From NCBI RefSeq assembly GCF_036241575.1, contig NZ_CP108455.1:7547001-7611000 (forward strand): a stretch of DNA of 64,000 bases, written 5' to 3'. Below are positions 1 through 14,663 of the stretch, piece after piece. The stretch comes from Streptomyces sp. NBC_01267 (lineage in GTDB: Bacteria > Actinomycetota > Actinomycetes > Streptomycetales > Streptomycetaceae). The position numbers were made by a program, and so were the translations under genes. How positions within the stretch are numbered: the stretch's first letter is position 1; each line of letters opens with the position of its first letter. A model generated the notes under the pieces. It ran no database searches. It was not told where the DNA came from and saw only the letters and a program-made list of their open reading frames with translations.

Positions 1-353
1 ACCTTTACCTCGATCGTCGTCCTCGCGCTGCGGAAAACCAGGACTCGCCGGTCGCGCGGTGAGGCCTTCACCTCGACAGGAACCTCCTGCGTGCCGTCGG
101 CCACCACGCTGACCAGCGGCACCGATGTGCCTGCCGCCAGATAGTCGGTGTCACTGCGCAGATCCACCAGGCTGTTCACCCGGCCGGAGTTGCTGAGTCC
201 CACCGACAGGAAGCCCGCGATGATCCGCTGCGCCTGAGACGTCCCACCGGTGCCTGTCTGCACCGCCTGAGCGGTGGCGGCGGCAGGCACCAGCGTCCCC
301 ATCGCCGTGATCGAACTCAGGCCGCTGACAGCCAGAAAGCGACGTCTGTCCAT
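1..353 (-). CDS. Tat-exported protein, N-terminal part (truncated by window edge)
   Basis: The ATG at 353-351 opens a frame that stays open to the window edge, giving about 117 residues. The N-terminus begins MDRRRFLAVSG and continues with a hydrophobic stretch and AAATAQA, a twin-arginine signal peptide with a plausible cleavage site. The mature part reads as an extracellular beta-rich protein (SLVDLRSDTDYL, VPVEVKASPRDRRV), but I recognise no catalytic family. It is divergent from the sugar ABC importer, so a secreted glycan-processing or binding role is a guess from context only. Confidence 0.7.
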   Translation of the reverse strand, partial: MDRRRFLAVSGLSSITAMGTLVPAAATAQAVQTGTGGTSQAQRIIAGFLSVGLSNSGRVNSLVDLRSDTDYLAAGTSVPLVSVVADGTQEVPVEVKASPRDRRVLVFRSARTTIEVK

Positions 354-926
354 ATTTCCTCCGAGGCCGAAGCGAATTTCGTGCCGGAAAGGGGTATCGA
401 CCGGCGGCACCCGCACGGTTCGGGCATTTCCGTGGGATACGAACAGCAAGGGGGACGACGAACGTGCATCCCTGCGGCTGTGCCTGGGTCGAGATCCCTT
501 GCCTCTCCCGGGCGGACGCCCAGCACAAGTGCGACCTAGCGTGCAGCTGACCGCGGGGCGAGTCAAGGCTTAGTTAGGATCTATCTGGAGTTCGATCGCT
601 CGCGTACGGGCTTCCCGGGCAGGCGCAGGAGTGTTCGTCCCGCAGCCGGCCATTCAATGCATCACATCTATCGTGTCAATCCGCGACAGATAGTTGCGCT
701 TTATCCCTTGACACTGTTGTGGACGGACTTCGATACTCAGAGCGCTTTCGATGGAGGAACGCTCGGGGGAGCGGCCACCCTCGAACGCAGTAGGACTCTC
801 CGGGGAGTCCGAAGCATGTGGCGGGATCGGCGGACGGCCGGGAGCGGGATTTCCCCACCTCGTCATGGAACGACAGGGCAGCGACACGCCGCCGCCTCCG
901 AAAGCGACGGGTAAGGGAAGAGACGC
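354..926. promoter_or_regulatory. Divergent promoter region of the sugar ABC importer
   Basis: This 573-bp stretch holds no convincing gene. On the plus strand TTGACA at 708-713 and GATACT at 732-737, 18 bp apart, form a good vegetative-type promoter for the binding-protein gene. Just upstream an imperfect inverted repeat (CTATCGTGTC at 668-677 against GACAGATAG at 685-693) is placed as an operator would be. Its regulator is unknown; the GntR and ROK proteins of this locus are candidates. Confidence 0.5.
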
Positions 927-2219
927 ATGACACGCAAACCGACACTCCTGGGGGCAGCCGCCCTCGCAGGTGCACTGGTCCTGACCGGATGCACGGCCGG
1001 CGGCGCCGGCGGGAGTGCGTCCTCGGGCGACAAAGTCACCCTGACCTTCCTCACCTTCGAAACGCCGAACCTCGATGCGAAGTACTGGGACGCGGCGATC
1101 GCCAGGGCCTCGGCGAAGGTGCCCGGGGTGACCATCAAGAAGCTCGTGTCACCCAGCGCGGACCGCACCGGATACGCGAAGCAACTGGACAGTACGGGCC
1201 AGTTCCCGGACATCATGATCGGCTTGAACCCCGCCGGGTTCGCCGAGGCGCACAAGCTGGCGGCATGGTCGGACAGCGAGCTCGCCACGTACGCCGAGCC
1301 CCACGCCAACACGTACGACGGAAAGGTCTACCAGCTGCCCTATGCCGCCCAGACGACGCTGGTCTACTACAACAAGGGCGACTTCACCAAGGCCGGCATC
1401 GGCGCTCCGCCACGTACCTACGCCGAACTGCTCGCCGACAACGCCAAGTTGAAGGCGAAGGGGATCAATCCGATGGTGGTCGGCGGTGGCGGCAAGGACT
1501 CCTGGGCGGATATGTTCCCGCTGATCTGCACGGTGGCCACCGACGTGTACAAGAAGACCCCGGACTGGCTGTCCCAACGCACGGCGGGCAAAGTCAAGTT
1601 CACCGACCGGGCGTTCGTCACCGCTGCCGGGAAGGTCGCCGACCTGGCCCACAAGGGTTACGTGGACCGGGCGGGGCTGTCGCGTTCCTACGCGGACACC
1701 GAGCAGGCATTCCGCGACGGCAAGGGCGCCATGTACCCGATGGGCAGTTGGTTCTCCGCCTCGGCCGACGCCAAGAAGCCGAGCTTCGACACGGGTGTCT
1801 TCGCATGGCCCACCGACCAGGGAGCGCCTGCGCTCCCTGGCGTCACCGGCGGCGGGATGACGGTGAGTTCCAAGGCGTCAGATGTGAAACTCGCCAAGAA
1901 ATGGGCGAAGGCCTTCATGGAGGACCACAAGAACCTCGACGCCGCCGTCAAGGCCGACGGGCTCATCATCGACATCAAGGGCTACACACCGCCGGACAAC
2001 ATGGGGCCGGTCTACAAAGCGACCGTCGCGGCGTACCGGCAGGCCCAGAAGGCCGACGGGATCGTCAACTCGTTCTCCCAGGAGACCGGCGACGGCTCCA
2101 TGCCGCCCGGTCTGTCCGACAAGGCAGCAGCAGGAGTCCAGAAACTCCTCAGCGGCCGTATGACAGCCGCACAGTTCGGCGCCTACATGGACGAGCAGTG
2201 GGACAAGGCCACCCGGTAA
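927..2219 (+). CDS. Sugar ABC transporter substrate-binding lipoprotein
   Basis: This 430-residue protein is a family 1 extracellular solute-binding protein, anchored outside the membrane and delivering an oligosaccharide or glycoside to the permeases that follow. Its lipoprotein signal ends in the lipobox LTGC (residues 19-22). The mature part has the usual features of sugar-binding proteins, including an early FLTFETPNL segment and a late TGGGMTVSSKASD segment. An SD-like GGGAAGAG lies a few bases before the ATG. It is the first gene of a tight three-gene operon. The ligand cannot be read from sequence; neighbouring hydrolase and dehydratase genes suggest a plant glycoside or sugar acid. 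Confidence 0.93.
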   Translation: MTRKPTLLGAAALAGALVLTGCTAGGAGGSASSGDKVTLTFLTFETPNLDAKYWDAAIARASAKVPGVTIKKLVSPSADRTGYAKQLDSTGQFPDIMIGLNPAGFAEAHKLAAWSDSELATYAEPHANTYDGKVYQLPYAAQTTLVYYNKGDFTKAGIGAPPRTYAELLADNAKLKAKGINPMVVGGGGKDSWADMFPLICTVATDVYKKTPDWLSQRTAGKVKFTDRAFVTAAGKVADLAHKGYVDRAGLSRSYADTEQAFRDGKGAMYPMGSWFSASADAKKPSFDTGVFAWPTDQGAPALPGVTGGGMTVSSKASDVKLAKKWAKAFMEDHKNLDAAVKADGLIIDIKGYTPPDNMGPVYKATVAAYRQAQKADGIVNSFSQETGDGSMPPGLSDKAAAGVQKLLSGRMTAAQFGAYMDEQWDKATR

Positions 2220-3217
2220 TGCGAATCCGCACCCTCACCCGACCGGAAGGTTCGCCTGCCACGCCCGGGAAACCGGGCGCTCCAGGAGGACCGCAGCCGA
2301 CCATTGCCCTGAAGCGGTCGCCACGACGGCCCCGGCAGGCACGTTCGAGAGACGGACTGAGCCGCTTCGCGCTCTTCGCGGTGCCGGGTCTCCTGGTCTA
2401 CCTGGCCCTTGTGCTCGTGCCCATCGGCATCACGGTCGGCTACAGCTTCACCAACAAGAACCCCTTCAACCCGCCGACCCAGTGGGTAGGCCTGTCCAAT
2501 CTGACCAGCCTCTTCTCCGACGACGAATTCCTCAAGGCACTCGGGAACACCGCCCTGGTCACGGCAATCGTGACCGTCGTCACCAACGCGGGCGGACTGG
2601 CTCTGGCCATGCTCCTCGACCGGCGGGGCTGGCTGTACAACGCACTCCGCAGCGTGTTCTTCGTCCCGGTCGTCCTCAGCGCCGTGGTGGTCAGCGTCAT
2701 CTGGCAGGCGATCCTCGTCGACGACGGCCTGCTCAATTCGATGCTGCGTCAGCTGGGGGTGAGCAACCCGCCGGGATGGCTCTCCGATCCGAGCCTGGCC
2801 CTCTACACGGTCTCGTGGGTCATCGCCTGGCAGAGCCTCGGCTTCTGCGTGGTCATCTACCTGGCCGGACTGCAGGGAATCCCACAGGAGTTGCAGGAAG
2901 CGGCGGCGATCGACGGCTGTGGACCATTCATGCGGTTCCGCCATGTCACCTGGCCGATGCTGGCGCCCGCCGTCACCATCAACACGGTGATGTCGCTGAT
3001 CGGCGGATTCAAGGCATACGACCAGATCCAGGTCCTCACCAACGGCGGCCCCGGCCCCGGCACCACATCCACCCTGGCCTTTCAGGTGATCCAGACCGCG
3101 TTCAACGGGAACCACGTCGGCTATGCCTCCGCCATGGCTGTGGCGATGCTGGTCCTGGTAGCGGCTATTTCGGTGATCGCGCTCGGGCTGTTGCAGAAAC
3201 GCGAGGTTTCTTCCTGA
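2219..3217 (+). CDS. Sugar ABC transporter permease 1 (MalF/LacF-like)
   Basis: This 332-residue inner-membrane protein has a long basic, proline-rich cytosolic N-terminus (about 60 residues), then about six membrane helices. The EAA loop that docks the ATPase reads EAAAIDGCGPFMRF. The start overlaps the previous stop in a TAATG junction, so the two genes are translationally coupled. The long open frame upstream of this start is only a shadow of the binding-protein gene. Confidence 0.92.
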   Translation: MRIRTLTRPEGSPATPGKPGAPGGPQPTIALKRSPRRPRQARSRDGLSRFALFAVPGLLVYLALVLVPIGITVGYSFTNKNPFNPPTQWVGLSNLTSLFSDDEFLKALGNTALVTAIVTVVTNAGGLALAMLLDRRGWLYNALRSVFFVPVVLSAVVVSVIWQAILVDDGLLNSMLRQLGVSNPPGWLSDPSLALYTVSWVIAWQSLGFCVVIYLAGLQGIPQELQEAAAIDGCGPFMRFRHVTWPMLAPAVTINTVMSLIGGFKAYDQIQVLTNGGPGPGTTSTLAFQVIQTAFNGNHVGYASAMAVAMLVLVAAISVIALGLLQKREVSS

Positions 3218-3219
3218 TC

Positions 3220-4047
3220 ATGAACGAACCCAGGACTTGGCTCCGTCCGGTTGCCGCACTGCTCGCAGGCATCCTGTTCATCGTGCCGATCTACCTCGTG
3301 CTGGTCAATGTGTTCAAGAACGGTTCGGAGATCGTTTCGAACCCGATGGGTCTGCCGATCCCGCCGACCTTGGACAACATCCACAGTGTGCTGTCCCGAC
3401 CGGACCACCTCTTCTGGTACGGCCTGGTCAACAGCACGGAGGTCACCGTGATCTCCATCCTCGTCATCACCGCGATCTCCGCCATGCTCGGCCACTACCT
3501 GGCGCGGGCGACCGGGGTCCTCGCCAAGGTCGCCATGGTTGCGCTGCTGTGCGGCCTGATGGTGCCGCCGGCGGTCATCCTCACCCCGATCACCGAGGTG
3601 CTCAGGGCTCTTGGCCTCATGAGTACCGTGCCCGGCCTGATCCTGGCGTACGTCGGCTACTACATGCCGTTCGGCGTCTTCGTCTTCGCCGGCTTCGCCA
3701 AGACGATCCCACGCGAAGTGGAAGAGGCAGCGGCCATCGACGGCGCAAGCGCATTTCGTGCCTTCTGGCAGGTGGTCTTCCCCTTGATGCGACCGGCATC
3801 GGCCAGTGTGCTGATCTTCCTCGGCGTCTGGATCTGGAACGACTTCCTCAACCCGCTGATCATCCTGGGTCCGGCCACCGGCACCACGGTGACCGTCGGG
3901 ATCTATCGCGCCATCGGCGAACACCAGGCGGACTTCGGCACGGTCTTCGCCCTCATGTTCCTGGCGACACTGCCCATCCTCGTGTTCTACCTGGCCTTCC
4001 AGAAGCAATTCGTCAAGGGCCTCACGGGTGGAGCGACGAAGGGCTGA
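3220..4047 (+). CDS. Sugar ABC transporter permease 2 (MalG/LacG-like)
   Basis: This 275-residue membrane protein has about six helices and the EAA loop EAAAIDGASAFRAF. The ATG follows the stop of permease 1 after two bases. It completes the importer membrane complex. No ATP-binding subunit follows: a terminator-like hairpin comes about 110 bp later. In streptomycetes such importers are commonly energised by a shared MsiK-type ATPase encoded elsewhere, which is the likely situation here. Confidence 0.93.
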   Translation: MNEPRTWLRPVAALLAGILFIVPIYLVLVNVFKNGSEIVSNPMGLPIPPTLDNIHSVLSRPDHLFWYGLVNSTEVTVISILVITAISAMLGHYLARATGVLAKVAMVALLCGLMVPPAVILTPITEVLRALGLMSTVPGLILAYVGYYMPFGVFVFAGFAKTIPREVEEAAAIDGASAFRAFWQVVFPLMRPASASVLIFLGVWIWNDFLNPLIILGPATGTTVTVGIYRAIGEHQADFGTVFALMFLATLPILVFYLAFQKQFVKGLTGGATKG

Positions 4048-4633: not shown

Positions 4634-5677
4634 TTACCAGCCCGGCTGGTCGAATCCGATGCCGGGGGCTGTGGGGGCTCGGACCAGACCGTCGGCACCC
4701 ACTGCGGGTTCGCGTATGACGGGGTTCGTGTAGACGAGGGACTCGTAGTAGGTGGTGTTGGGTATGGCCATGCAGAGATGGGCGTTGACGATTCCGGTGC
4801 CGTGCACTTCGGCACGCAGTTGGTAGCTGTCGGCGAGGTGGGCGATGCGGAGTGCTCCGGTGATGCCGCCCTTGTACTGTGCGCTGGTCCTGATGCGGCC
4901 CGCGGTGCCTGCGGCGATGAAGTCGCCGGCGTTCAGGTGTGCGCCGTCGGAGGTTTCTGCGACGAGGAGGGGGATGTCGACTTGTTCGGCCAGCCAGCGG
5001 TAGGAGGTGACGCTGAATTCGCGCATGGGTTCCTCGTACCAGAGGTACCCGGATTCGGAGAGGGCGTGGCCGAGGTGGATCGAGTCGGCGAGATCGAATC
5101 CGGCTGATCCGTCGTACATGAGCGGGACGTCGTCGCCGACGTGTGCGCGTAGCCTCTGGCAGAGTGCTGCATCTGCTTTCGGGTCGCCCCAGCCGTGGAG
5201 TTTGATGGCTGCGTAGCCCAGTTCCAGGCACTGGTCGGCTACGTCGAGGTACTCCTCGGTGCTGTTGAAGGTGACTGTGCTCGCGTAGGCGGGTATGGCT
5301 TCGCGGTACGGGCCGAGGAGCCGGTGGACCGGCTGTCCAGTTGCTTTGCCCGCCAGGTCCCACAGGGCTACGTCGACGAGGCCGAGCGCGTAGATCGGAA
5401 GTTCTTCGATGCGGTCGAGTTCCCACAGCCGGTGCCAGAGCAGTTCGCGCATCAGCGGGTCGCGGCCGGTCAGGTCCGCACGGATGCGACGGTTCACCAG
5501 GTCGGAGACGATCACTCCGCGCCGTGTGTGTGCTTCACCCACCAGGCCCTCGTCGGTGTGGACGCGCAGGATCCCGCCCACTACCGCAGGCTCTGAACCG
5601 GGCAGCCCGGCCCGCCACCGGAAGGGCGGCTGGGCGGGCAGGTCGACCATTTCCACGGTCACATCGGTGATTCGCAT
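4634..5677 (-). CDS. Enolase-superfamily (mandelate racemase/muconate lactonizing) enzyme
   Basis: This 347-residue protein has the N-terminal capping domain and the TIM-barrel of the enolase superfamily. These enzymes abstract a proton alpha to a carboxylate to dehydrate, racemise or cycloisomerise acids. Probable metal ligands are Asp189 (MYDGS), Glu215/216 (YEEPM) and Glu241 (AETS). Probable acid/base residues are in KLHG (Lys159, His161) and His292 (VHGTG). This pattern suggests a sugar-acid dehydratase, but the substrate is not deducible. A palindrome at 5761-5775, shared with the GntR gene, lies 84 bp upstream of its start and implies co-regulation. Confidence 0.88.
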   Translation of the reverse strand: MRITDVTVEMVDLPAQPPFRWRAGLPGSEPAVVGGILRVHTDEGLVGEAHTRRGVIVSDLVNRRIRADLTGRDPLMRELLWHRLWELDRIEELPIYALGLVDVALWDLAGKATGQPVHRLLGPYREAIPAYASTVTFNSTEEYLDVADQCLELGYAAIKLHGWGDPKADAALCQRLRAHVGDDVPLMYDGSAGFDLADSIHLGHALSESGYLWYEEPMREFSVTSYRWLAEQVDIPLLVAETSDGAHLNAGDFIAAGTAGRIRTSAQYKGGITGALRIAHLADSYQLRAEVHGTGIVNAHLCMAIPNTTYYESLVYTNPVIREPAVGADGLVRAPTAPGIGFDQPGW

Positions 5678-5760
5678 GGATGTCCTTCACGGCTGGAGGT
5701 CCGGAGTTCAGGAGAGGACGAGGCCGCTGGTCGTCACATTCCGGCCTCGGCACCATTCGT

Positions 5761-5775
5761 ATGTTTCAGATACAT
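5761..5775. promoter_or_regulatory. GntR-type operator upstream of the enolase-family gene
   Basis: ATGTTTCAGATACAT is an inverted repeat of the form ATGTnTCnGAnACAT. The same sequence, identical at 19 of 20 positions over 5761-5780 when read on the opposite strand, occurs at 8234-8253 before the GntR gene. Two copies flanking one locus make this a strong operator candidate. Confidence 0.75.
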
Positions 5776-5970
5776 GATGCGATCCGGGTTAGTGAATCAC
5801 ACTCAAACTCGCGATACCAGGGTCCAGTAGCTCCAGGCTCTTCCCGTCTCGGCTGAGTTGTTCGGTCGAGCCGCCCCGAGCGGCTCCGCCGCCGGTCAAT
5901 GCCGTTGAACCCGCTGTCGCCGCGTCGGGGTTTCCAGGGCCTCGCGCCGTTCAGGCTCGTAAAGGCCTGG

Positions 5971-6405
5971 TCATGTGTCAGATCTATCGTGCGGCCGTAC
6001 CTTCGCCAATGGGCAGGTATCCGGTCCGCAGCCGGTCCCGGCACCGCCGTACGCCCGCGGCCCCCAGGGCCGGTTTCCTCCGGGGCCTGCTCGACGGTCG
6101 TATCGGGCGGTACCGCGGCTCCCGGGGCGGTCAGCACTTCCGCCCCGCACCAGCGAGGAGTTCCACGTCCGCGTGATGGCCACGGGCCGTTCCAGGAAGT
6201 ACAGCCACACCTGTCCCGCGACGAGAAGCAAGAGCGCGACCGCCACCAGAGGTACCGACCACTCCCACAACAGACGCAGTGGCCACGGGACATGATCCGT
6301 CTGACTGGTGGCCTGGTTGGCCGCCATGCCCAACAGCGCCCCGAGCAGCATGAGCAGGACGTCCAGGACGGGGCTTGGCCGGACGACGGTCCACGCATCC
6401 CCCAC
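5971..6405 (-). CDS. Putative small membrane protein
   Basis: From a GTG start this frame encodes 144 residues. Two hydrophobic helices (VLDVLLMLLGALLGMAANQ and VPLVAVALLLLVAGQVWLYF) are followed by a polar glycine/arginine-rich tail. The membrane half looks genuinely coding, while the tail is compositionally loose and could reflect a frameshift after about residue 85. I recognise no family and see no convincing SD. It lies between the enolase-family and oxidoreductase genes, on the same strand. Confidence 0.45.
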   Translation of the reverse strand: MGDAWTVVRPSPVLDVLLMLLGALLGMAANQATSQTDHVPWPLRLLWEWSVPLVAVALLLLVAGQVWLYFLERPVAITRTWNSSLVRGGSADRPGSRGTARYDRRAGPGGNRPWGPRAYGGAGTGCGPDTCPLAKVRPHDRSDT

Positions 6406-6540
6406 CGGAATCGGAGGCCGTCACCGTCCCGGGCCCTCCGGCTCATGCGGCGCTGTGCGGCTCAACTGGCTTCTCCAGGCGGTGCGTTCACCTGCGCATG
6501 CCGAGGCGCTCAGTCACAGACTGATTCACCGGGAGTGGGA

Positions 6541-7710
6541 TCACTGCTGACCGTGTGCGAAGTAGGCGGCCAGGTCCGCCGGTACGGGAGCGATGTCGAC
6601 GGCCTTTCCTCCGTCCCGCAGTGACATGGTGGCCGCGTAGCCGGCGGCCACCGCTTCCCGGGCCGCCACCGGTGAGGTGACGGTGCTCCCGCCCTCCCGG
6701 ACGAACCGCAGGAACTCCGCTACCAGCAGCGGATCGGCACCGCCGTGGGTGCCGGTCGGAGTGTGGACGGGGACCACCAGGTCGGCTTCGGCGCGGTATT
6801 CGGAGCGGCGGTTCCACACCCGGACCTCCGCTCCCTCGGAGTCGCCGAAGTTCTCGATTCGCCCCTCGGTGCCGATCACCGTGTAGTTGCGCCAGTAGTC
6901 CGGTGTGTAGTGGCACTGCTGGTAGCTGGCGAGGACGCCGTTGTCCAGCTGCATCTGCATCATGCTCAGGTCCTCCACGTCCACCACCGGGTTCAGACCG
7001 GTCAGGCCGAGGGGCGGCCAGTTGTCCTTCGACAACCAGTCGATCATCAGCTGCCCGCCGCGGTCCTGGCGCGAGGTGATGTCGCCGTAGACGGTCAGCC
7101 CTCCCATGGCGTTCACGCGCCGGGTGTATCCACCGGCCAGCCAGTGGATGACGTCGATGTCGTGGGCCCCCTTCTGCAGGAGCAGGCCAGTGGTGTTGCG
7201 CCGGTCGGCGTGCCAGTCCTTGAAGTAGAAATCTCCGCCGTGGCCGACGAAGTGGCGGCACCAGATGGCCTTCACCTCGCCGATGGCCCCGCTGTCGATC
7301 AGCTCGCGCATGGCCACCACGACCGGCATGTGCCGCATGTTGTGGCCGATGTACAGCGGGGTCCGGTACGAGCGGGCCGCCGCGAGCAGCCGGTCGCAGC
7401 CCTCGATGCTGATCGCCATCGGCTTGTCCAGGAACACCGGAACACCGGCCGCGAGGAAGTCCAGGCCGATCTCCTCGTGCGTGTGGTCGGGCGTCAGGAC
7501 GAACACGCCGTCGAGCCCGGCATCGAGCAGCTCGTGGTGGTCCGCAGTGGTCCGCACCTGTTCGCCGAAGCGATTCCCGGCCTGTGCGAGCATCCGTGGA
7601 TCGCGGTCGCAGGCCGCGGCCACCACGCTTCCTGAGCCCGGCCGATGGGCCAGCTCGACCAGATCGCTGCGCATGCCCAGTCCGATGGCGCCGAGCTTCA
7701 TGTCGTCCAA
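6541..7710 (-). CDS. Gfo/Idh/MocA family oxidoreductase
   Basis: This 389-residue NAD(P)-dependent dehydrogenase has an N-terminal Rossmann fold beginning KLGAIGLGMRSDLVEL, then the family pattern LTPDHTHEEIGLDFL and the EKP-like motif as LDKPMAI. The C-terminal domain is the GFO/IDH/MocA alpha/beta domain with a GGDFYFKDWH loop. A TTG at 7710 is preferred because AGGGGAG lies about 5 bases before it; the ATG three codons later would be about 14 bases away. Its place beside the dehydratase and GH3 genes suggests oxidation of a sugar, inositol-like or glycoside substrate. Confidence 0.9.
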   Translation of the reverse strand: MDDMKLGAIGLGMRSDLVELAHRPGSGSVVAAACDRDPRMLAQAGNRFGEQVRTTADHHELLDAGLDGVFVLTPDHTHEEIGLDFLAAGVPVFLDKPMAISIEGCDRLLAAARSYRTPLYIGHNMRHMPVVVAMRELIDSGAIGEVKAIWCRHFVGHGGDFYFKDWHADRRNTTGLLLQKGAHDIDVIHWLAGGYTRRVNAMGGLTVYGDITSRQDRGGQLMIDWLSKDNWPPLGLTGLNPVVDVEDLSMMQMQLDNGVLASYQQCHYTPDYWRNYTVIGTEGRIENFGDSEGAEVRVWNRRSEYRAEADLVVPVHTPTGTHGGADPLLVAEFLRFVREGGSTVTSPVAAREAVAAGYAATMSLRDGGKAVDIAPVPADLAAYFAHGQQ

Positions 7711-8318
7711 CGTGCTCCCCTTTCAAGGGATTTCGACAAGTTATGGTTTGCTGTTGTGAGGGCGACGCCCTGGAGGGAATGCCGTGGTGCGGCACGAGGG
7801 CCGGCTCCGATGCGGAGGCCACCGGCGCCCCGGCGGAACCAGTGGCCGGTGATGGGTTCGTCCTGCAGGCCGGCCGGGCCGTCGCAGAGGGGCAGCGGGG
7901 GAGGGCCCTGGGGGGAACGGTGGGATACGGATGTCCGCAGTTCCCCCCCCGGGGGGTGATGAAGGCTGATGTCCTTTTGGCGAGGCGGCGTGGATGAGAC
8001 GGCGGACCGACCGCCGCCGTCCGCTGGACTCCCGGCGCCGGCGCGGTGACATCGGGGGTTCTACTCGCGTCGACGATGTGCTGCGGAGAATCGAGAGTGG
8101 TCGCCCAGGAGCGGTATAACGGCCGGGTAGGGATGGAACGACGTGGAGGAGACGGCGCGACCGGACGCAGGAAAGTCTGGGGTCATCGGATTCTGGCGTC
8201 AAGGGTTTGAATATGATTCACTGAGCCAGTGTTGCATGATGTATCTGAAACATTTGGCCGGCGTCGAGACCAAGGTCTGCCGGACCGGCGGCCTCAAGAG
8301 GGAAGCGAGGCAAAGCCG
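7711..8318. other. Divergent intergenic region, oxidoreductase / GntR regulator
   Basis: About 600 bp separate the two divergent starts and I see no credible gene. It holds a perfect C6G6 block at 7945-7956 and the palindrome GAATATGATTC at 8207-8217. The GntR operator at 8239-8253 lies near the regulator. The long minus-strand open frame here has no coding character. Confidence 0.5.
8239..8253. promoter_or_regulatory. GntR-type operator upstream of its own gene
   Basis: ATGTATCTGAAACAT is the reverse complement of the palindrome at 5761-5775. The match extends to GCATGATGTATCTGAAACAT at 8234-8253 with one mismatch. Its position 66 bp before the proposed TTG start implies autoregulation. Confidence 0.75.
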
Positions 8319-9098
8319 TTGACCCACTCAGAGAAGGCCACCGCGCCGGCCCCTGTGCCTGCGGGCGCGGGAGGCGGCTACCGTCCCGGGTACGAGGTTG
8401 CAGCTGAGCGTGTCCTTGAGTTCATCGTCCGGGAGGGGTTGCAGCCGGGTGACCGGCTGCCCACGGAGAAGGATCTGGCCGATGAGGTGCAGATGAGCCG
8501 GACCGTGGTGCGGGAAGCGGTGAAGATCCTTTCGGCGTTGGGGCGGCTGTCCGTGCAGAAGGGGCGCGGCATCTATGTGGCCGAGCCGGAGCAGTCCTCC
8601 TGGCAGCAGTCGCTCGTCAACTTCTTGCCCGCGGATCTGCGGCAGGTGGACGAGCTCTTCGAGTTCCGCCGCCATCTGGAGACCACCACCACGAACCTGG
8701 CTTCGCAGCGTGCCACTCCCGCGCAGGTCAGGGCCGTGCGCGAAGCTGCGCGCCAGTCCGTGGAGGCGGCGGGGCAGGGTGACATCGATGCTTTCACCCT
8801 TGCCGACGAGGCCTTCCATACCGGTATCGCGGCCGCTGCTGCCAATATGTTCTTCGCGTCGACGGTGGAGGCGATGCGGCGTCTGCAGCGGCAGGTCACG
8901 ACCATAGGGCTGGCCGGCATCGCGGGAGGATCCCTGCGGGTGGCCGCCGAACAGCACGAGGCCATCGCCGAGGCCATCGCTTCCGGAGAGACCAGCCGCG
9001 CCGAAGCGCTGATGGCCGAGCACATCGACATGACCGCCCAGCAGTTCCAGCAGGAGATCTGGCGCCGCGTCGTACCCGGCGACGAGCCCAAGCCCTGA
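8319..9098 (+). CDS. GntR/FadR-family transcriptional regulator
   Basis: This 259-residue regulator has an N-terminal winged helix (YRPGYEVAAERVLEFIVREG, then GDRLPTEKDLADEVQMSRTVVREAVKIL) and a C-terminal all-helical FCD ligand-binding domain (FEFRRHLETTTTNLAS, ADEAFHTGIAAAA). A TTG at 8319 is chosen because GAGG lies 8 bases upstream and because the operator would otherwise sit inside the coding region. FCD regulators usually sense organic or sugar acids and dissociate from DNA on binding. The two shared palindromes make it the probable repressor of the enolase-family gene and of itself. Confidence 0.9.
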   Translation: MTHSEKATAPAPVPAGAGGGYRPGYEVAAERVLEFIVREGLQPGDRLPTEKDLADEVQMSRTVVREAVKILSALGRLSVQKGRGIYVAEPEQSSWQQSLVNFLPADLRQVDELFEFRRHLETTTTNLASQRATPAQVRAVREAARQSVEAAGQGDIDAFTLADEAFHTGIAAAAANMFFASTVEAMRRLQRQVTTIGLAGIAGGSLRVAAEQHEAIAEAIASGETSRAEALMAEHIDMTAQQFQQEIWRRVVPGDEPKP

Positions 9099-9400: not shown

Positions 9401-9565
9401 CAAACTGCCGAACTGCGGGGCGTGAGGCCTGAGTTGTGTCGGAGTTGCACCGAATGACGTCATCGCTGGTTCAGGTCCGGCACAGGCCCTGGGCTGCCCT
9501 TCATGGCCAAGCCTGATGACACGTCCCGGACGACGCACGACGGACGACGGACGACGGAGGACAGG

Positions 9566-12500
9566 ATGGACGAGCGGAAGCGACGCAGGCTTCGGCGGCC
9601 GAGCGTGGCCGCGGTCTGCGCGATCGCATGCGCGGTGGGGCTGAGCGCCACCTACGGCAGTCCCGCCGTGGCGCAGACCTCGCACATGGCGCCAAGTACC
9701 CCGGCCTACCTGGACACGCACTACTCGTTCCAGGAGCGTGCCGCGGACCTGGTGTCGAGAATGACGCTCCAGGAGAAGGCGCAACAGCTCAGCACGAACA
9801 GCGGGCCCGCCATCCCACGGCTGGGCGTCCAGCAGTACACGTACTGGAGCGAGGGGCAGCACGGCGTCAACAGCCTGGGTGCCGACCAGAACAACGGCGG
9901 GGTGAAGGGAGGCGTGCACTCCACCAGCTTCCCGACCAACTTCGCCGCGTCCATGTCCTGGGACAAGGACCTGATGTACCAGGAGAGCACCGCGATTTCG
10001 GATGAGGCGCGCGGCTTCCTGGACAAGTCCCTGTTCGGCACCGGGCAGAACAATCTGGGTCCCTCCGCCGACGACTACGGCGATCTGACCTACTGGGCCC
10101 CGACGGTCAACCTGGACCGCGACCCGCGGTGGGGTCGCACGGACGAGGCGTTCGGCGAGGACCCGTACCTCGTCGGCCAGATGGCCGGCCAGTTCATCGA
10201 CGGCTACGAGGGCAACAACCAGGACGGCAGCTCGCAGACCGGCTACCTCAAGGTCGCCGCGACCGCCAAGCACTACGCGCTCAACAACGTCGAGGACGAC
10301 CGCACCGGCATCAGCTCCGACGTCAACGACACCGACCTGCGCGACTACTACACCGCCCAGTTCCGCGACCTCATCGAGAACGCGCACGTGTCCGGCCTGA
10401 TGACCTCGTACAACGCGATCAACGGTACCCCGTCCACCTCGGACACCTACACCACCAACGAACTCGCCCAGCGCACCTACGGTTTCAACGGCTACATCAC
10501 CTCGGACTGCGGCGCGGTCGGTACCAACTGGAGGCAGTTCCCCGGTGGCCACGACTGGGCACCGCCCGGCTGGACCACCGACCACGACGCCGACAGCCCG
10601 ACCTGGACCCGGACCGCCACCGGCAGGACCATGTCGGGCCAGGCGGGCGGCCAGGCGTACTCGCTGCGGGCGGGCACCGACCTCAACTGCACCGGCGACG
10701 AGGCCACTACCGCGAACATCGAGCAGGCCATCGACGCCGGCGCGCTCAGCGAGGGCGTCATCGACACCGCGTTGGTGAAGGTCTTCACCATCCGCATGGA
10801 GACCGGTGAGTTCGACCCGGCCGGGAGCGTGAAGTACACCTCGATCACCAAGGACCAGATCGAAAGCCCGGCTCACCAGCAGTTGGCGGCGAAGGTCGCC
10901 GACAACTCGCTGGTGCTGCTGAAGAACTCCGCACCGGCCGCCGCGAGCCCGTTGCTCCCGGTCGACCCGTCGAAGACGAAGAAGGTCGTCATCCTGGGCG
11001 ACATGGCGAACACCACTTCCCTCGGACTGTATTCGGGCGAACCGGATCACACCACGAGCCCGGTGCAGGGCATCACCGACGAGGTGAAGGCCGCCGACCC
11101 GGGCGCCGATGTGGTCTTCGACGCCGCCGGCACCTCCTCGACCTCCACCACCGCGGCGACGCTCAGCGACCGGACGAAGGCCGACATCAAGGCCGCCGAC
11201 CTGGTCGTGATATTCGCCGGTACCAACACGGGCAACGCCGACGAGGGCAAGGACCGCACCAACCTCGCCATGCCCGGCAACTACGACTCGCTGATCGACC
11301 AGACCTCCGCTCTGGGCAACAAGAAGCTGGCGCTGGTCATCCAGTCCGACGGCCCGGTGAAGATCGACGACCAGCAGGCGAAGGTCTCCTCGATCGTCTT
11401 CAGCGGCTTCAACGGCCAGGCCCAGGGCACCGCGCTCGCCGACGTGCTCTTCGGCAAGCAGAACCCGTCCGGGCGCCTCAACTTCACCTGGTACAAGGAC
11501 GAGTCGCAGCTTCCGGACAAGTCCGACTACGGGCTGACCCCCGGTGAGACCGGTGGCCTCGGCCGCACCTACCAGTACTTCACCGGCACCCCCACCTACC
11601 CGTTCGGCTACGGCCTGAGCTACAGCTCCTTCTCCTACTCGCACATCGACGCCGACCACACGCAGATCACTCCGGACGGCTCGGTGAAGATCGGCGTCGA
11701 CGTCAAGAACACCGGCAAGGCTGCCGGCGCGACCGTCGCGCAGCTCTACGCGGCCACGCCGTTCAAGGTCCAGGGTGTCCAGTTGCCGCAGAAGCGGCTG
11801 GCCGGCTTCGCGAAGACCGACGTACTCGAACCCGGCCGGACCCAGCACCTGAACATCACCGTCAAAGCCTCCGACCTGTCGAGCTGGGACGCCGCGAAAT
11901 CACGGCAGACGGTCTACAACGGTCCCTACCAGTTCCAGGTCGGCCCGGACTCCGCGCACCCCGCGGGCACCGCGACCGTACGCATCAGCGGTCGCCTCAC
12001 CCCGAAGGTGCAGACCGTCACGGTGCAGCCGGAGAGCGTCGTCCACAACGCGGGCGACACATTCAGCCTCACCGGCAAGAACCAGTGGATCAAGGACGAC
12101 ACCGACCACTCCAAGGAGCAGCGCGACACGTCGATCACCGCGGACAACGTCGTGGAGGCGGTCAACAACGACCAGTCCTTCGTGAACCTGAACACCACCA
12201 GGCCCACCTACAGGAGTAGTGACACCAAGGTCGCCACCGTCGACAAGAGCGGCACCGTGCACGCGGTCGCCGACGGTGTCGCCACCATCTCCGTCACGGT
12301 CAGTGGGGTGTCCGGCTCGACCCCCGTCGTGGTGCGCAACTCCCTGAAGCTCGGCGCGCCGACGGTCGCCGAGGCCGGTTCCACACTCACCGCGACCACC
12401 ACCTACACCAACGGCTCGGCCGCCGCAGTGAACAACATCAGGGTTGGGCTGACGGCGCCCGACGGCTGGACCGCCACCGCCGACACCCCGGCCACCTTCC

Positions 12501-13216
12501 ACCAGGTCGGCGCAGGAGAGGCCGTCAGCACCACCTGGTCGGTGACCGTCCCGGCCGCCGCCGACCCGGCCTCCTTCACGCTGGGCGCCACCGTCAGCAC
12601 ACCTGGCGGCGACCACACCGCGGATGCGGCGGTCACCGTGCCGTACGCCTCACTGACCGCCGCCTACACCAACCCTGGAATCAGCAGCGACGACAACACC
12701 GGGGCCGGCAACTTCGACGGCGGGGGCGCCAGCCTCTCCAGCCAGGCGCTACAGGCCGTCGGTTGGACTCCCGGCAAGAGCACCGCCCATGACGGGATCT
12801 CCTTCCCGTGGCCGGCCACCGCCGGTACCGGAAGGCCCGACAACGTGGTGGCCGGTGGCCAGGCGATCGAGATCACCGGCACCGGTACCAAGCTGGGTTT
12901 CGTCGGCGCGAGTGCCTTCGGCAGCGCGTCCGGCAGCGGCACCATCACCTATACCGACGGCACCACCCAGAGGTACGCGCTGACTCTCGCCGACTGGTGG
13001 TCGAAGACCGCTTCCCCGGGCAGTGACATCGCAGCCGGCCTGCCGTACCTCAACAACAGCGGCGGGCAGTCGCAGCAGCCCGTGAACATCTATGCCGCGA
13101 CGGTCGACCTGCTGCCCGGCAAGACCGTGCAGGCCGTCACCCTGCCGAACGTCAGCAGCAGCGCGACCGACAAGGTACTCGCCATGCACCTCTTCTCCGT
13201 GGCCGTCGGCGGCTGA
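9566..13216 (+). CDS. Secreted glycoside hydrolase family 3 protein (beta-glucosidase/beta-xylosidase type)
   Basis: This 1216-residue exported enzyme starts at an ATG with GGAGG five bases upstream. A basic, hydrophobic signal ends near SPAVA. The GH3 barrel follows, with the conserved KHYALNN segment and nucleophile Asp314 in GYITSDCGAV. The second GH3 domain and a fibronectin III-like domain run to about residue 800. Then come a bacterial Ig-like segment (KVATVDKSGTVHAVADG, near 886), an NEW3-like domain, and a C-terminal beta-sandwich (about 1035-1216) that looks carbohydrate-binding. It should release monosaccharides from plant glycans or glycosides outside the cell, feeding the nearby importer. 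A terminator hairpin follows. Confidence 0.92.
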   Translation: MDERKRRRLRRPSVAAVCAIACAVGLSATYGSPAVAQTSHMAPSTPAYLDTHYSFQERAADLVSRMTLQEKAQQLSTNSGPAIPRLGVQQYTYWSEGQHGVNSLGADQNNGGVKGGVHSTSFPTNFAASMSWDKDLMYQESTAISDEARGFLDKSLFGTGQNNLGPSADDYGDLTYWAPTVNLDRDPRWGRTDEAFGEDPYLVGQMAGQFIDGYEGNNQDGSSQTGYLKVAATAKHYALNNVEDDRTGISSDVNDTDLRDYYTAQFRDLIENAHVSGLMTSYNAINGTPSTSDTYTTNELAQRTYGFNGYITSDCGAVGTNWRQFPGGHDWAPPGWTTDHDADSPTWTRTATGRTMSGQAGGQAYSLRAGTDLNCTGDEATTANIEQAIDAGALSEGVIDTALVKVFTIRMETGEFDPAGSVKYTSITKDQIESPAHQQLAAKVADNSLVLLKNSAPAAASPLLPVDPSKTKKVVILGDMANTTSLGLYSGEPDHTTSPVQGITDEVKAADPGADVVFDAAGTSSTSTTAATLSDRTKADIKAADLVVIFAGTNTGNADEGKDRTNLAMPGNYDSLIDQTSALGNKKLALVIQSDGPVKIDDQQAKVSSIVFSGFNGQAQGTALADVLFGKQNPSGRLNFTWYKDESQLPDKSDYGLTPGETGGLGRTYQYFTGTPTYPFGYGLSYSSFSYSHIDADHTQITPDGSVKIGVDVKNTGKAAGATVAQLYAATPFKVQGVQLPQKRLAGFAKTDVLEPGRTQHLNITVKASDLSSWDAAKSRQTVYNGPYQFQVGPDSAHPAGTATVRISGRLTPKVQTVTVQPESVVHNAGDTFSLTGKNQWIKDDTDHSKEQRDTSITADNVVEAVNNDQSFVNLNTTRPTYRSSDTKVATVDKSGTVHAVADGVATISVTVSGVSGSTPVVVRNSLKLGAPTVAEAGSTLTATTTYTNGSAAAVNNIRVGLTAPDGWTATADTPATFHQVGAGEAVSTTWSVTVPAAADPASFTLGATVSTPGGDHTADAAVTVPYASLTAAYTNPGISSDDNTGAGNFDGGGASLSSQALQAVGWTPGKSTAHDGISFPWPATAGTGRPDNVVAGGQAIEITGTGTKLGFVGASAFGSASGSGTITYTDGTTQRYALTLADWWSKTASPGSDIAAGLPYLNNSGGQSQQPVNIYAATVDLLPGKTVQAVTLPNVSSSATDKVLAMHLFSVAVGG

Positions 13217-13442: not shown

Positions 13443-14663
13443 CTGACCATTCGCAACACCCCGGGGGCCACGATCGAAACGCCAGTCAACCTGCGTGAGG
13501 TAGGACGGCTGCGGGTCCTCGAGGCCCTGCACTCCACCACGCACAGCAGCCGTCCCGAGCTGCTCCGGGCCACCGGGCTGTCCCGGGCTACCGTCTCCTC
13601 TCTGATCGCCGACCTGATCTCCGTCGGTCTGGTCATCGAGGACGAGGGACCGGAGGGCCCGGAACCGCGCCGCACCGGCAGACCCGCACAGTCCCTGTCG
13701 TTGGTGCCGACCGCGGGCTATGCGATCGGCGCGGACATCGGTCACCAACACGTCCGGGTGATCCTTTGCGACCTGTTCGGGTCGGTCCAGTGGGAGCACT
13801 GCGTGGCCAAGGAAGTGGACCGGGCGCCCGAGGAGACCCTCGACCTGGTCGCCGCACTGGTCGCGCGCGCCCTCCAGGAGAGCGGGATCGAGCGCTCCCG
13901 GGTGCTGGGGGCAGGGGTCGGTATCGCCTCGCCGGTGGAGAAGGACAGCGGCGCCCTCGGTGCCGAGGGCATCATGTCCGGCTGGGTCGGCATGCGGCTG
14001 ACCGAAGAGCTCGAGCGCCGTACCGCGCTGCCGGTCCGCGTCACCAACGACGCCAACGCCGGCGCCCTCGCCGAGCGGATGTACGGCGCCGGCCGGCAGA
14101 CCGGCGACATGGTCTACGTCCGGCTGTCGGCGGGCATCGGCGCGGGCATCGTCAGCAATGGGCGGCTGCTGCTCGGCGCCCGCGGACTCGCGGGCGAGAT
14201 CGGGCACATCCCGCTCATCGCCGATGGCCTCATCTGCCGCTGCGGCAACCGCGGTTGCCTGGAGACGGTGGCCAGCCCCGTCGCCATCGCCCGCCTGCTG
14301 GCGGACAGTTGGGGCCATCCGGTCGCCGCCCGCGACCTGCCCGGACTCATCGAACAGCGCAACCCGGGCGCCCTGCGAGCCGTTCGCGACGCCGGCGACG
14401 CGGTCGGCCGCGCCCTGTCCAACCTGGTCACCCTCCTCAACCCTCGGCTCATCGTGGTCGGCGGCGACCTCGCGCGCGCGGGCAAGGACATCCTCGAACC
14501 GATGCGCGCCGGCGTGTGCAACCACACACTGCCCTCCGCCGCGGAGAGCGTCGAGATCGTCACCGGCGGTCTCGGCGACGGCGCCGAAGTCCGCGGCGCC
14601 GCCGGTCTCGTCCTCGCCGACGCCCCTCAGCTTCTGTCCGACCGTTCCTGCCGACCAGGCTGA
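13443..14663 (+). CDS. ROK-family transcriptional regulator (probable CTG start)
   Basis: The protein has an N-terminal winged helix (PELLRATGLSRATVSSLIAD) joined to a ROK sugar-kinase-like domain starting GYAIGADIGHQHVRV. The zinc/sugar motif GEIGHIPLIADGLICRCGNR is followed by GCLE. Coding sequence clearly extends upstream of the first in-frame TTG (13701), since the DNA-binding domain lies there, but there is no ATG, GTG or TTG back to the stop at 13410. CTG at 13443, 10 bases after GAAGG, gives 406 residues, a normal length. ROK regulators bind sugars and repress uptake and hydrolase genes; control of the GH3 gene or importer is likely. Confidence 0.85.
   Translation: MTIRNTPGATIETPVNLREVGRLRVLEALHSTTHSSRPELLRATGLSRATVSSLIADLISVGLVIEDEGPEGPEPRRTGRPAQSLSLVPTAGYAIGADIGHQHVRVILCDLFGSVQWEHCVAKEVDRAPEETLDLVAALVARALQESGIERSRVLGAGVGIASPVEKDSGALGAEGIMSGWVGMRLTEELERRTALPVRVTNDANAGALAERMYGAGRQTGDMVYVRLSAGIGAGIVSNGRLLLGARGLAGEIGHIPLIADGLICRCGNRGCLETVASPVAIARLLADSWGHPVAARDLPGLIEQRNPGALRAVRDAGDAVGRALSNLVTLLNPRLIVVGGDLARAGKDILEPMRAGVCNHTLPSAAESVEIVTGGLGDGAEVRGAAGLVLADAPQLLSDRSCRPG

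Follow-up and report, generated by a model that had tools for sequence, protein, structure and literature searches.

Predicted operators of an FCD-type GntR regulator and a putative conserved sugar regulon in Streptomyces sp. NBC_01267

Regulators of the GntR family with an FCD domain are mostly repressors that sense carboxylates at the metal site of that domain, and members that activate, such as GlcC and FadR, are known; the E. coli FadR site has a TCnGA centre. Looping of the gal type employs operators on either side of promoters, and an oxidative L-fucose pathway with an L-fucono-1,5-lactonase is known from Burkholderia. The operators of the FadR subfamily typically take the form GT-N2/3-AC, with GT and AC 2-3 nt apart, and the exceptions include NanR and BioR (PMC4494728). 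The present analysis concerns a stretch of 64,000 nucleotides of Streptomyces sp. NBC_01267 (the window, G000:C1:7547001-7611000 in a genome of 8,069,363 bp, own-genome coordinates being given as G000:C1), in which two copies of a palindromic sequence stand before the gene of an FCD-type GntR regulator (gntR) and that of an enolase-superfamily protein (ENO). These sites are likely to be operators of GntR, which would control its own gene together with a conserved regulon for the catabolism of one sugar. The predicted members are gntR, an ATP-binding cassette (ABC) importer, ENO and a Gfo/Idh/MocA oxidoreductase (GFO), joined at a second locus at 0.42 Mb by an oligopeptide-type importer, a GH35 protein and a secreted protein resembling GH36, GH101 and GH129.

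Support at the sequence level comes from the sites, their rarity, conservation and spacing, and the partnership of the genes; from these we infer GntR binding, repression, looping, the inducer and the promoters. No description of the regulon was found in open-licence papers. The initial annotation had proposed a small GntR regulon around a putative acid-sugar pathway, tied to a sugar importer and a secreted GH3 enzyme; it had overlooked GFO as a constant partner, the distal operators, the importer sites, the 0.42-Mb locus and the secreted GH36/101/129-like protein.

The two palindrome copies and their module

The sequence ATGTTTCAGATACAT lies at 5761-5775 of the window and ATGTATCTGAAACAT at 8239-8253; both form the cores of predicted proximal operators (O1) at 5759..5777 (minus strand, ENO) and 8237..8255 (plus strand, gntR). 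Read towards the gene, both copies give GCAT[G/C]ATGTATCTGAAACAT, 20 bases with one mismatch (gntR copy GCATGATGTATCTGAAACAT, ENO copy GCATCATGTATCTGAAACAT). The initial annotation had reported both the palindromes before these two genes and the 20-base likeness; both were recovered, and the likeness in fact exceeds 20 bp, each copy lying within a module of ~90 bp. In the whole genome, ATGTNTCNGANACAT occurs perfectly at two places, both in the window, against 0.035 occurrences expected from the window base composition; two further places carry one mismatch, and the reversed-pattern control gave 0. The genome scan suggested earlier has therefore returned two exact places and not hundreds of random copies. 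Within the window alone, three matches appear when up to two mismatches are allowed, a count equalled by 3 of 100 shuffles, so that the weight rests on the exact match and the genome-wide rarity. Similarly, 60 relatives not chosen for cluster carriage yielded 119 operator hits with up to two mismatches and 0 exact ones; hits with two mismatches thus tell little by themselves, and the case depends on the exact core and on clustering. A scan of 11 carrier genomes for GATRTATCNGAAACAT, tolerating up to two mismatches, gave 37 hits, 25 of them within 25 kb of gntR (none of these in G047 or G397), against a total of 6 for the reversed controls. Chance or random scatter of the sites was rejected on the genome-wide rarity and the carrier-genome scans.

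Close GntR orthologues are rare: identity of at least 83% was found in 4 of 199 genus genomes (own included), the next best being 48%, and a contig scan gave 11 loci. Ten sister genomes were compared, with loci of one genome merged and the same-species record (L035) left out: S. niphimycinicus (L036/L082), G165 (L006/L083), NBC_01306 (L037), Embleya (L038), Kitasatospora (L039), Wenjunlia (L040/L045), S. aculeolatus (L041), S. antnestii (L042/L044), Yinghuangia (L043) and G047 (L084). Both ENO (79-92% identical) and GFO accompany GntR in all ten, and the importer is present in nine, being absent from the Kitasatospora stretch and 66% identical in Yinghuangia; the order of the cluster genes is shuffled among them. 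In Wenjunlia, ENO, GFO and the importer (L045) lie on another contig than the full gntR, beside a fragment of a GntR match.

O1 (ATGTATCnGAAACAT, ~82 bp before gntR or ENO) recurs at the equivalent place before gntR orthologues, with the consensus TGATRTATCnGAAACAT. A separate O1 precedes ENO in five loci, which represent four lineages (window, L037, L038, L082 and L083); the gene follows gntR directly in L039, L043 and L044 and diverges from the importer in L041/L084. An alignment of 16 modules gives CCTGGcgTCaaGnGTtTGnaTnTGATTCACTga followed by the operator; in the window, the module element is GTTTGAGTGTGATTCACTAA before ENO (5789..5808, minus strand) and GTTTGAATATGATTCACTGA before gntR (8205..8224, plus strand). 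As GTTTGNNTNTGATTCACYNA, the element has three exact occurrences in the own genome, each beside a regulon gene (gntR, ENO and G000:C1:419610-419629), and two more with two mismatches. When up to two mismatches were tolerated, a search of eight sister genomes detected it in seven (not G397), at nine places that are all gntR or ENO, against one hit of the reversed control. Element and operator as a single exact pattern are confined to 4 of 392 genus genomes (own, same species, G150 and G165), and Streptomyces, Embleya, Kitasatospora, Wenjunlia and Yinghuangia share the operator core and the promoter boxes.

A one-mismatch place at G000:C1:7779483 falls inside a 3709-codon reading frame and was not taken as a regulon site, and an operator-like site with one or two mismatches stands outside the clusters at G000:C1:7540070-7540085. 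For two such sites (one/two mismatches) in other genomes, G165:C1:11392209-11392224 and G399:C1236:12867-12882, a search within 1.5 kb turned up no close regulon protein. Five regions with ATGTATCSGATACAT palindromes in other genomes were examined, none with a match to the reference proteins, and probably belong to another system. A TGTATCnGATACA palindrome with nearby partial repeats was seen in other Streptomyces (L148 4392, L149 4457, L150 4659, L151 4354 and L152 4539), where the neighbouring genes are unrelated to the cluster.

Predicted promoters, importer sites and distal operators

On the strand opposite gntR or ENO, the module carries TTGACG-N17-CAGACT, a predicted divergent promoter that in the window lies before gntR and points towards GFO (8174..8202, minus strand). 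With the divergent-gene status of the 16 modules taken from locus maps, 10 of the 12 that have a divergent gene retain this promoter intact, as against 0 of the 4 that have none (Fisher p 0.008; 0.011 with L082/L083 merged), and its two boxes are kept or lost jointly in 16/16. The gntR module of the window keeps it and the ENO module, with no divergent boxes adjoining its element, has lost it. In all ten modules with the promoter, O1 ends 34-35 nt before the divergent -35 box; the conserved element abuts that box. A consensus promoter scanner flagged the importer promoter and not the divergent one.

Before the importer, operator A (CGATAGATGTGATGCATTG, 655..673, minus strand) ends 34 nt before the -35 box of a predicted promoter, TTGACA-N18-GATACT (708..737, plus strand; 10/12 consensus bases, shuffles mean 0.0), and an operator-like site B (GGATAAAGCGCAACTATCT, 688..706, minus strand), weak alone with a score of 8.0, lies 1 nt before the same box. 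When scored with a matrix trained without importer sites, eight of nine importer upstream regions exceeded mononucleotide shuffles, seven of them at p 0.005 and L082 at p 0.040, and the promoter form TTGAC-N17/18-NATACT is kept in eight of nine importer loci, L043 lacking it. A site stands 33-35 nt before the importer -35 box in 8/8 (scores 22.0, 12.3, 30.9, 18.5, 25.3, 9.1, 6.5 and 28.2), and a second site at 1 nt ranks in the top three in 7/8 (not L044), with scores of 3.0-16.4; this second site outscores the first in L082/L083, an overlapping copy at 42-43 nt does so in L038 and L044, and in L083 the best importer-upstream site is another one, lying 507 bp upstream. The gap of 33-35 nt matches the spacing of O1 from the other promoters, giving a fixed distance in 18 promoters (10 + 8), with one exception, a site only 11 nt from the TTGACG of the 0.42-Mb secreted-protein gene.

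On this evidence from conserved sites and promoters, the importer is a real member of the predicted regulon. The earlier statement that no further copy precedes the importer holds for exact copies and fails for the two degenerate ones, whereas its proposed tie to the importer is borne out. The secreted GH3 enzyme (9503-13216, plus strand) fared otherwise: its upstream region carries no site (p 0.64), and among sister clusters GH3 is present only in L037 (60% identical, adjoining ENO). A ROK gene (13701-14663, plus strand) likewise lacks a site (p 0.90), and both were rejected as regulon members; with the same matrix, the upstream regions of GH3, ROK and three genes of L068, described below, were not above shuffles (p 0.11-0.90). 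Of the earlier proposal, a small GntR regulon around a probable acid-sugar pathway is supported by operator conservation before gntR and ENO and by importer membership, and the GH3 link is dropped.

Distal operators (O2) were sought 60-350 bp upstream of 17 O1 sites, using leave-one-out matrices and 200 shuffles (floor p 0.005), and 16 of the 17 had one, each at p 0.005. They are GATAGATCTGATACAT-like, lie beyond the divergent promoter, by arithmetic near +130 of the divergent start, and stand 161-250 bp from O1 (212 in five; the L044 O2 is in opposite orientation). The O2 of ENO occupies 5971..5989 (minus strand), 212 bp from O1.

The predicted regulon reaches a second locus of the own genome 7.1 Mb away (L067, 0.42 Mb), where the module precedes an oligopeptide-type permease gene accompanied by two ATPase genes and GH35. 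Here an O2-type site lies 210 bp from O1, and another lies 568 bp ahead of a secreted protein belonging to the family seen at the left edge of the window. The L067 O1, ATGTATAGGAGACAT, is degenerate; since ENO of L037 has a nearly identical variant, this need not be decay. In G165 and G150, the transport genes (86-91% identical) and ENO diverge around one module, with GH35 (89%) beyond. A single ancestral divergent region thus appears to have been split in two, leaving the ENO region of the window and the 0.42-Mb locus close to the two ends of the chromosome contig.

Genes, candidate pathway and candidate substrate

The GntR regulator (8319..9098, plus strand; TTG start from orthologue alignment) scores 53.7 bits for PF00392 (cutoff 27) and 88.2 bits for PF07729 (cutoff 24.3), both domains of an FCD-type GntR. 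Its residues D163, H167, H213 and H235, which we take to be the FCD metal site (Asp and three His), are invariant in 10/10 orthologues. ENO (4634..5677, minus strand; PF13378, PF02746), an MR_MLE protein and probable acid-sugar dehydratase, falls under the cutoff of every NCBIfam equivalog, the best being talarate/galactarate dehydratase (122.7 bits against a cutoff of 500), and its nearest structures are 1rvk, 4hcd and 4mmw. GFO (6541..7710, minus strand) carries PF01408, PF02894 and PF22725. The importer comprises a solute-binding protein (927..2219, PF13416) and two permeases (2393..3217 and 3217..4047, both PF00528), all on the plus strand. Divergent from it, the left edge of the window encodes the N-terminal 117 residues of a secreted 'Ig domain-containing' protein that continues beyond that edge (1..353, minus strand; 56% identical by tblastn to the L041 protein across 117 aa); its translation starts MDRRRF, with a twin-arginine translocation (Tat)-like signal by eye. 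Searches by protein name gave no function for ENO or for the secreted protein.

The sister clusters supply further enzymes. A lactonase-like amidohydrolase occurs in L039, L043, L044, L045, L082 and L083 (the L044 protein reaching 235.8 bits against an L-fucono-1,5-lactonase cutoff of 400, nearest structure 4dlf), an aldo-keto reductase whose nearest structures are L-galactose dehydrogenases in L038, L039, L044, L045, L082 and L083, a RhaM-type mutarotase in L043 and L044, a short-chain dehydrogenase/reductase (SDR) in L039, L043 and L044, and GH35 in L036, L040, L044 and L083. An L-fucose/L-galactose-type sugar is the favoured, though tentative, candidate for the substrate, and the pathway would run from aldose to lactone, aldonate and 2-keto-3-deoxy acid. 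In the own genome, L068 3144-11121 (G000:C1 ~7.365-7.373 Mb) holds homologues of the aldo-keto reductase (64%) and the lactonase (65%), ~3.7 kb from an alpha-L-fucosidase gene (PF01120); these genes have no operator upstream and were rejected as regulon members. Separately, an ATP-grasp ribosomal peptide maturase gene (TIGR04187, above cutoff) lies at L037 2951-3976 (NBC_01306), a few kb from the cluster.

The modelled fold of the L041 secreted protein, with a mean predicted local distance difference test (pLDDT) of 88.2, resembles GH36, GH101 and GH129 about equally, at ~10% identity, and the protein may also resemble glycosidase families outside those listed in the fold search. D515 and E549 are invariant in 37/37 members of the family and might be catalytic. 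Pfam recognises He_PIG and one sub-cutoff domain only, and for the barrel part no solved structure gave a sequence match with a convincing E-value. L082 (13838-18040) and L083 (3-4656) have two neighbouring copies of the family, one 81-82% and one 57% identical to the 0.42-Mb protein.

Proposed mode of regulation and known systems

The conserved sites as a set probably govern how one sugar is taken up and degraded. Bound to O1 and O2, GntR dimers would form a repressive loop over the promoters, blocking gntR and ENO, until binding of one of the pathway's sugar acids or lactones in the FCD pocket released GntR. Operators on both sides of the divergent promoter suggest such looping repression, to which we give slightly better than even chances, and the weak clustering of O1-O2 phases hints in the same direction. 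The fixed distance to the -35 box in 18 promoters suggests contact with RNA polymerase instead. GntR might accordingly act as an activator or dual regulator, with operator (~-80) and element (~-47), about three helical turns apart, contacting the polymerase at the importer, GFO and oligopeptide-type importer promoters, and with O1 near gntR and ENO serving autoregulation. The constant gaps at the ten divergent and eight importer promoters, the recurring second site at 1 nt and the existence of activating FCD regulators speak for this proposal. Nevertheless, the 0.42-Mb secreted-protein gene, with its 11-nt gap, departs from the geometry, the site at 33-35 nt scores poorly in L082/L083 (9.1 and 6.5) and is outscored at 42-43 nt in L038/L044, and the downstream O2 and the O1 near gntR and ENO suit repression; we regard activation as rather unlikely.

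Control of the sites by GntR itself is preferred over two further explanations. Another regulator, for example a GntR paralogue, might bind them, GntR being a passenger: 13 GntR-like matches were scored in the own genome, paralogues elsewhere have a related upstream palindrome, and binding by GntR is itself deduced. However, the O1 sequence tracks the GntR orthologue group, the helix region around SRTVVREAVK is invariant, and the four Streptomyces genomes with the element all hold a GntR orthologue or are of the same species, which makes this improbable. The upstream regions of gntR and ENO are alike over ~90 bp, which probably reflects shared ancestry, and a recent duplication or chance likeness with no regulatory role could be imagined; it is highly improbable, given that operator core and promoter boxes persist across five genera and that the divergent promoter is lost where the divergent gene is gone.

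Several observations weigh against control by a looping GntR repressor, or narrow it. The gntR of the window lacks an O2 (p 0.56), and the helical phasing of O1 and O2 is weak (10.5 bp per turn, Rayleigh p 0.013, several rows being close relatives). O1 is weak in L041/L084 and missing from the first GntR copy of L039, the second copy having one; the gntR modules of L038 and L041 have a divergent gene and lack the promoter boxes; and the L043 importer homologue has no site (p 0.82). Constant spacing of operators upstream of a -35 box is no less compatible with an activator than with a repressor. For the pathway, the window lacks a lactonase and an aldo-keto reductase, and their best own-genome homologues lie 174-180 kb away with no operators. 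Finally, the operator departs from the GT-N2/3-AC form given for the FadR subfamily in PMC4494728, GT and AC of O1 being 7 nt apart and O2 having no GT; the exceptions NanR and BioR imply that this mismatch lowers the case for a typical operator and not the domain-based FCD membership.

A predicted regulon with a very specific operator (exact at two places in 8 Mb) and a testable promoter geometry links orphan parts, namely an ENO subgroup with no known substrate, its constant GFO partner and a secreted glycosidase-like family mostly named 'Ig domain-containing protein'; knowing which ligand releases GntR would identify the pathway. A broader proposal, possible though doubtful, is that this FCD-type GntR has an operator class of its own (TATCnGATA-like core) and a fixed site array at ~-80, -47 and +130, acting as activator or loop-forming dual regulator of divergent promoters, in a sugar pathway that is itself new and is supplied by a secreted glycosidase family not yet described, the regulon being split between chromosome ends. 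Among 17 GntR paralogue loci (39-49% identity, L009-L025), an upstream palindrome lies within two mismatches of ATGAATCNGATTCAT in nine and within one in five; these probably represent a sister operator class. In L011, L012, L017, L020 and L022, a ATGAATCnGATTCAT-like palindrome within one mismatch stands 60-93 bp upstream of the paralogues (45-49% identical).

Compared with described systems, the regulator resembles the FadR/FCD subfamily in its GntR winged helix and FCD domain, in the palindromic operator before its own gene and in the TCnGA centre that O1 shares with the E. coli FadR site, and differs in the GT/AC spacing (PMC4494728) and in sites that are paired and promoter-anchored. As in gal-type looping, two predicted operators flank a divergent promoter, whereas the regulator family and the spacing (161-250 bp) differ. 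The secreted partner shares only ~10% identity with GH36, GH101 and GH129. The lactonase-like amidohydrolase, aldo-keto reductase, RhaM-type mutarotase, SDR and acid-sugar dehydratase relative of the sister clusters recall the oxidative L-fucose pathway, from which the system is set apart by having no family at equivalog cutoff, by GFO and two importers as extra components, and by a lactonase and reductase encoded outside the window.

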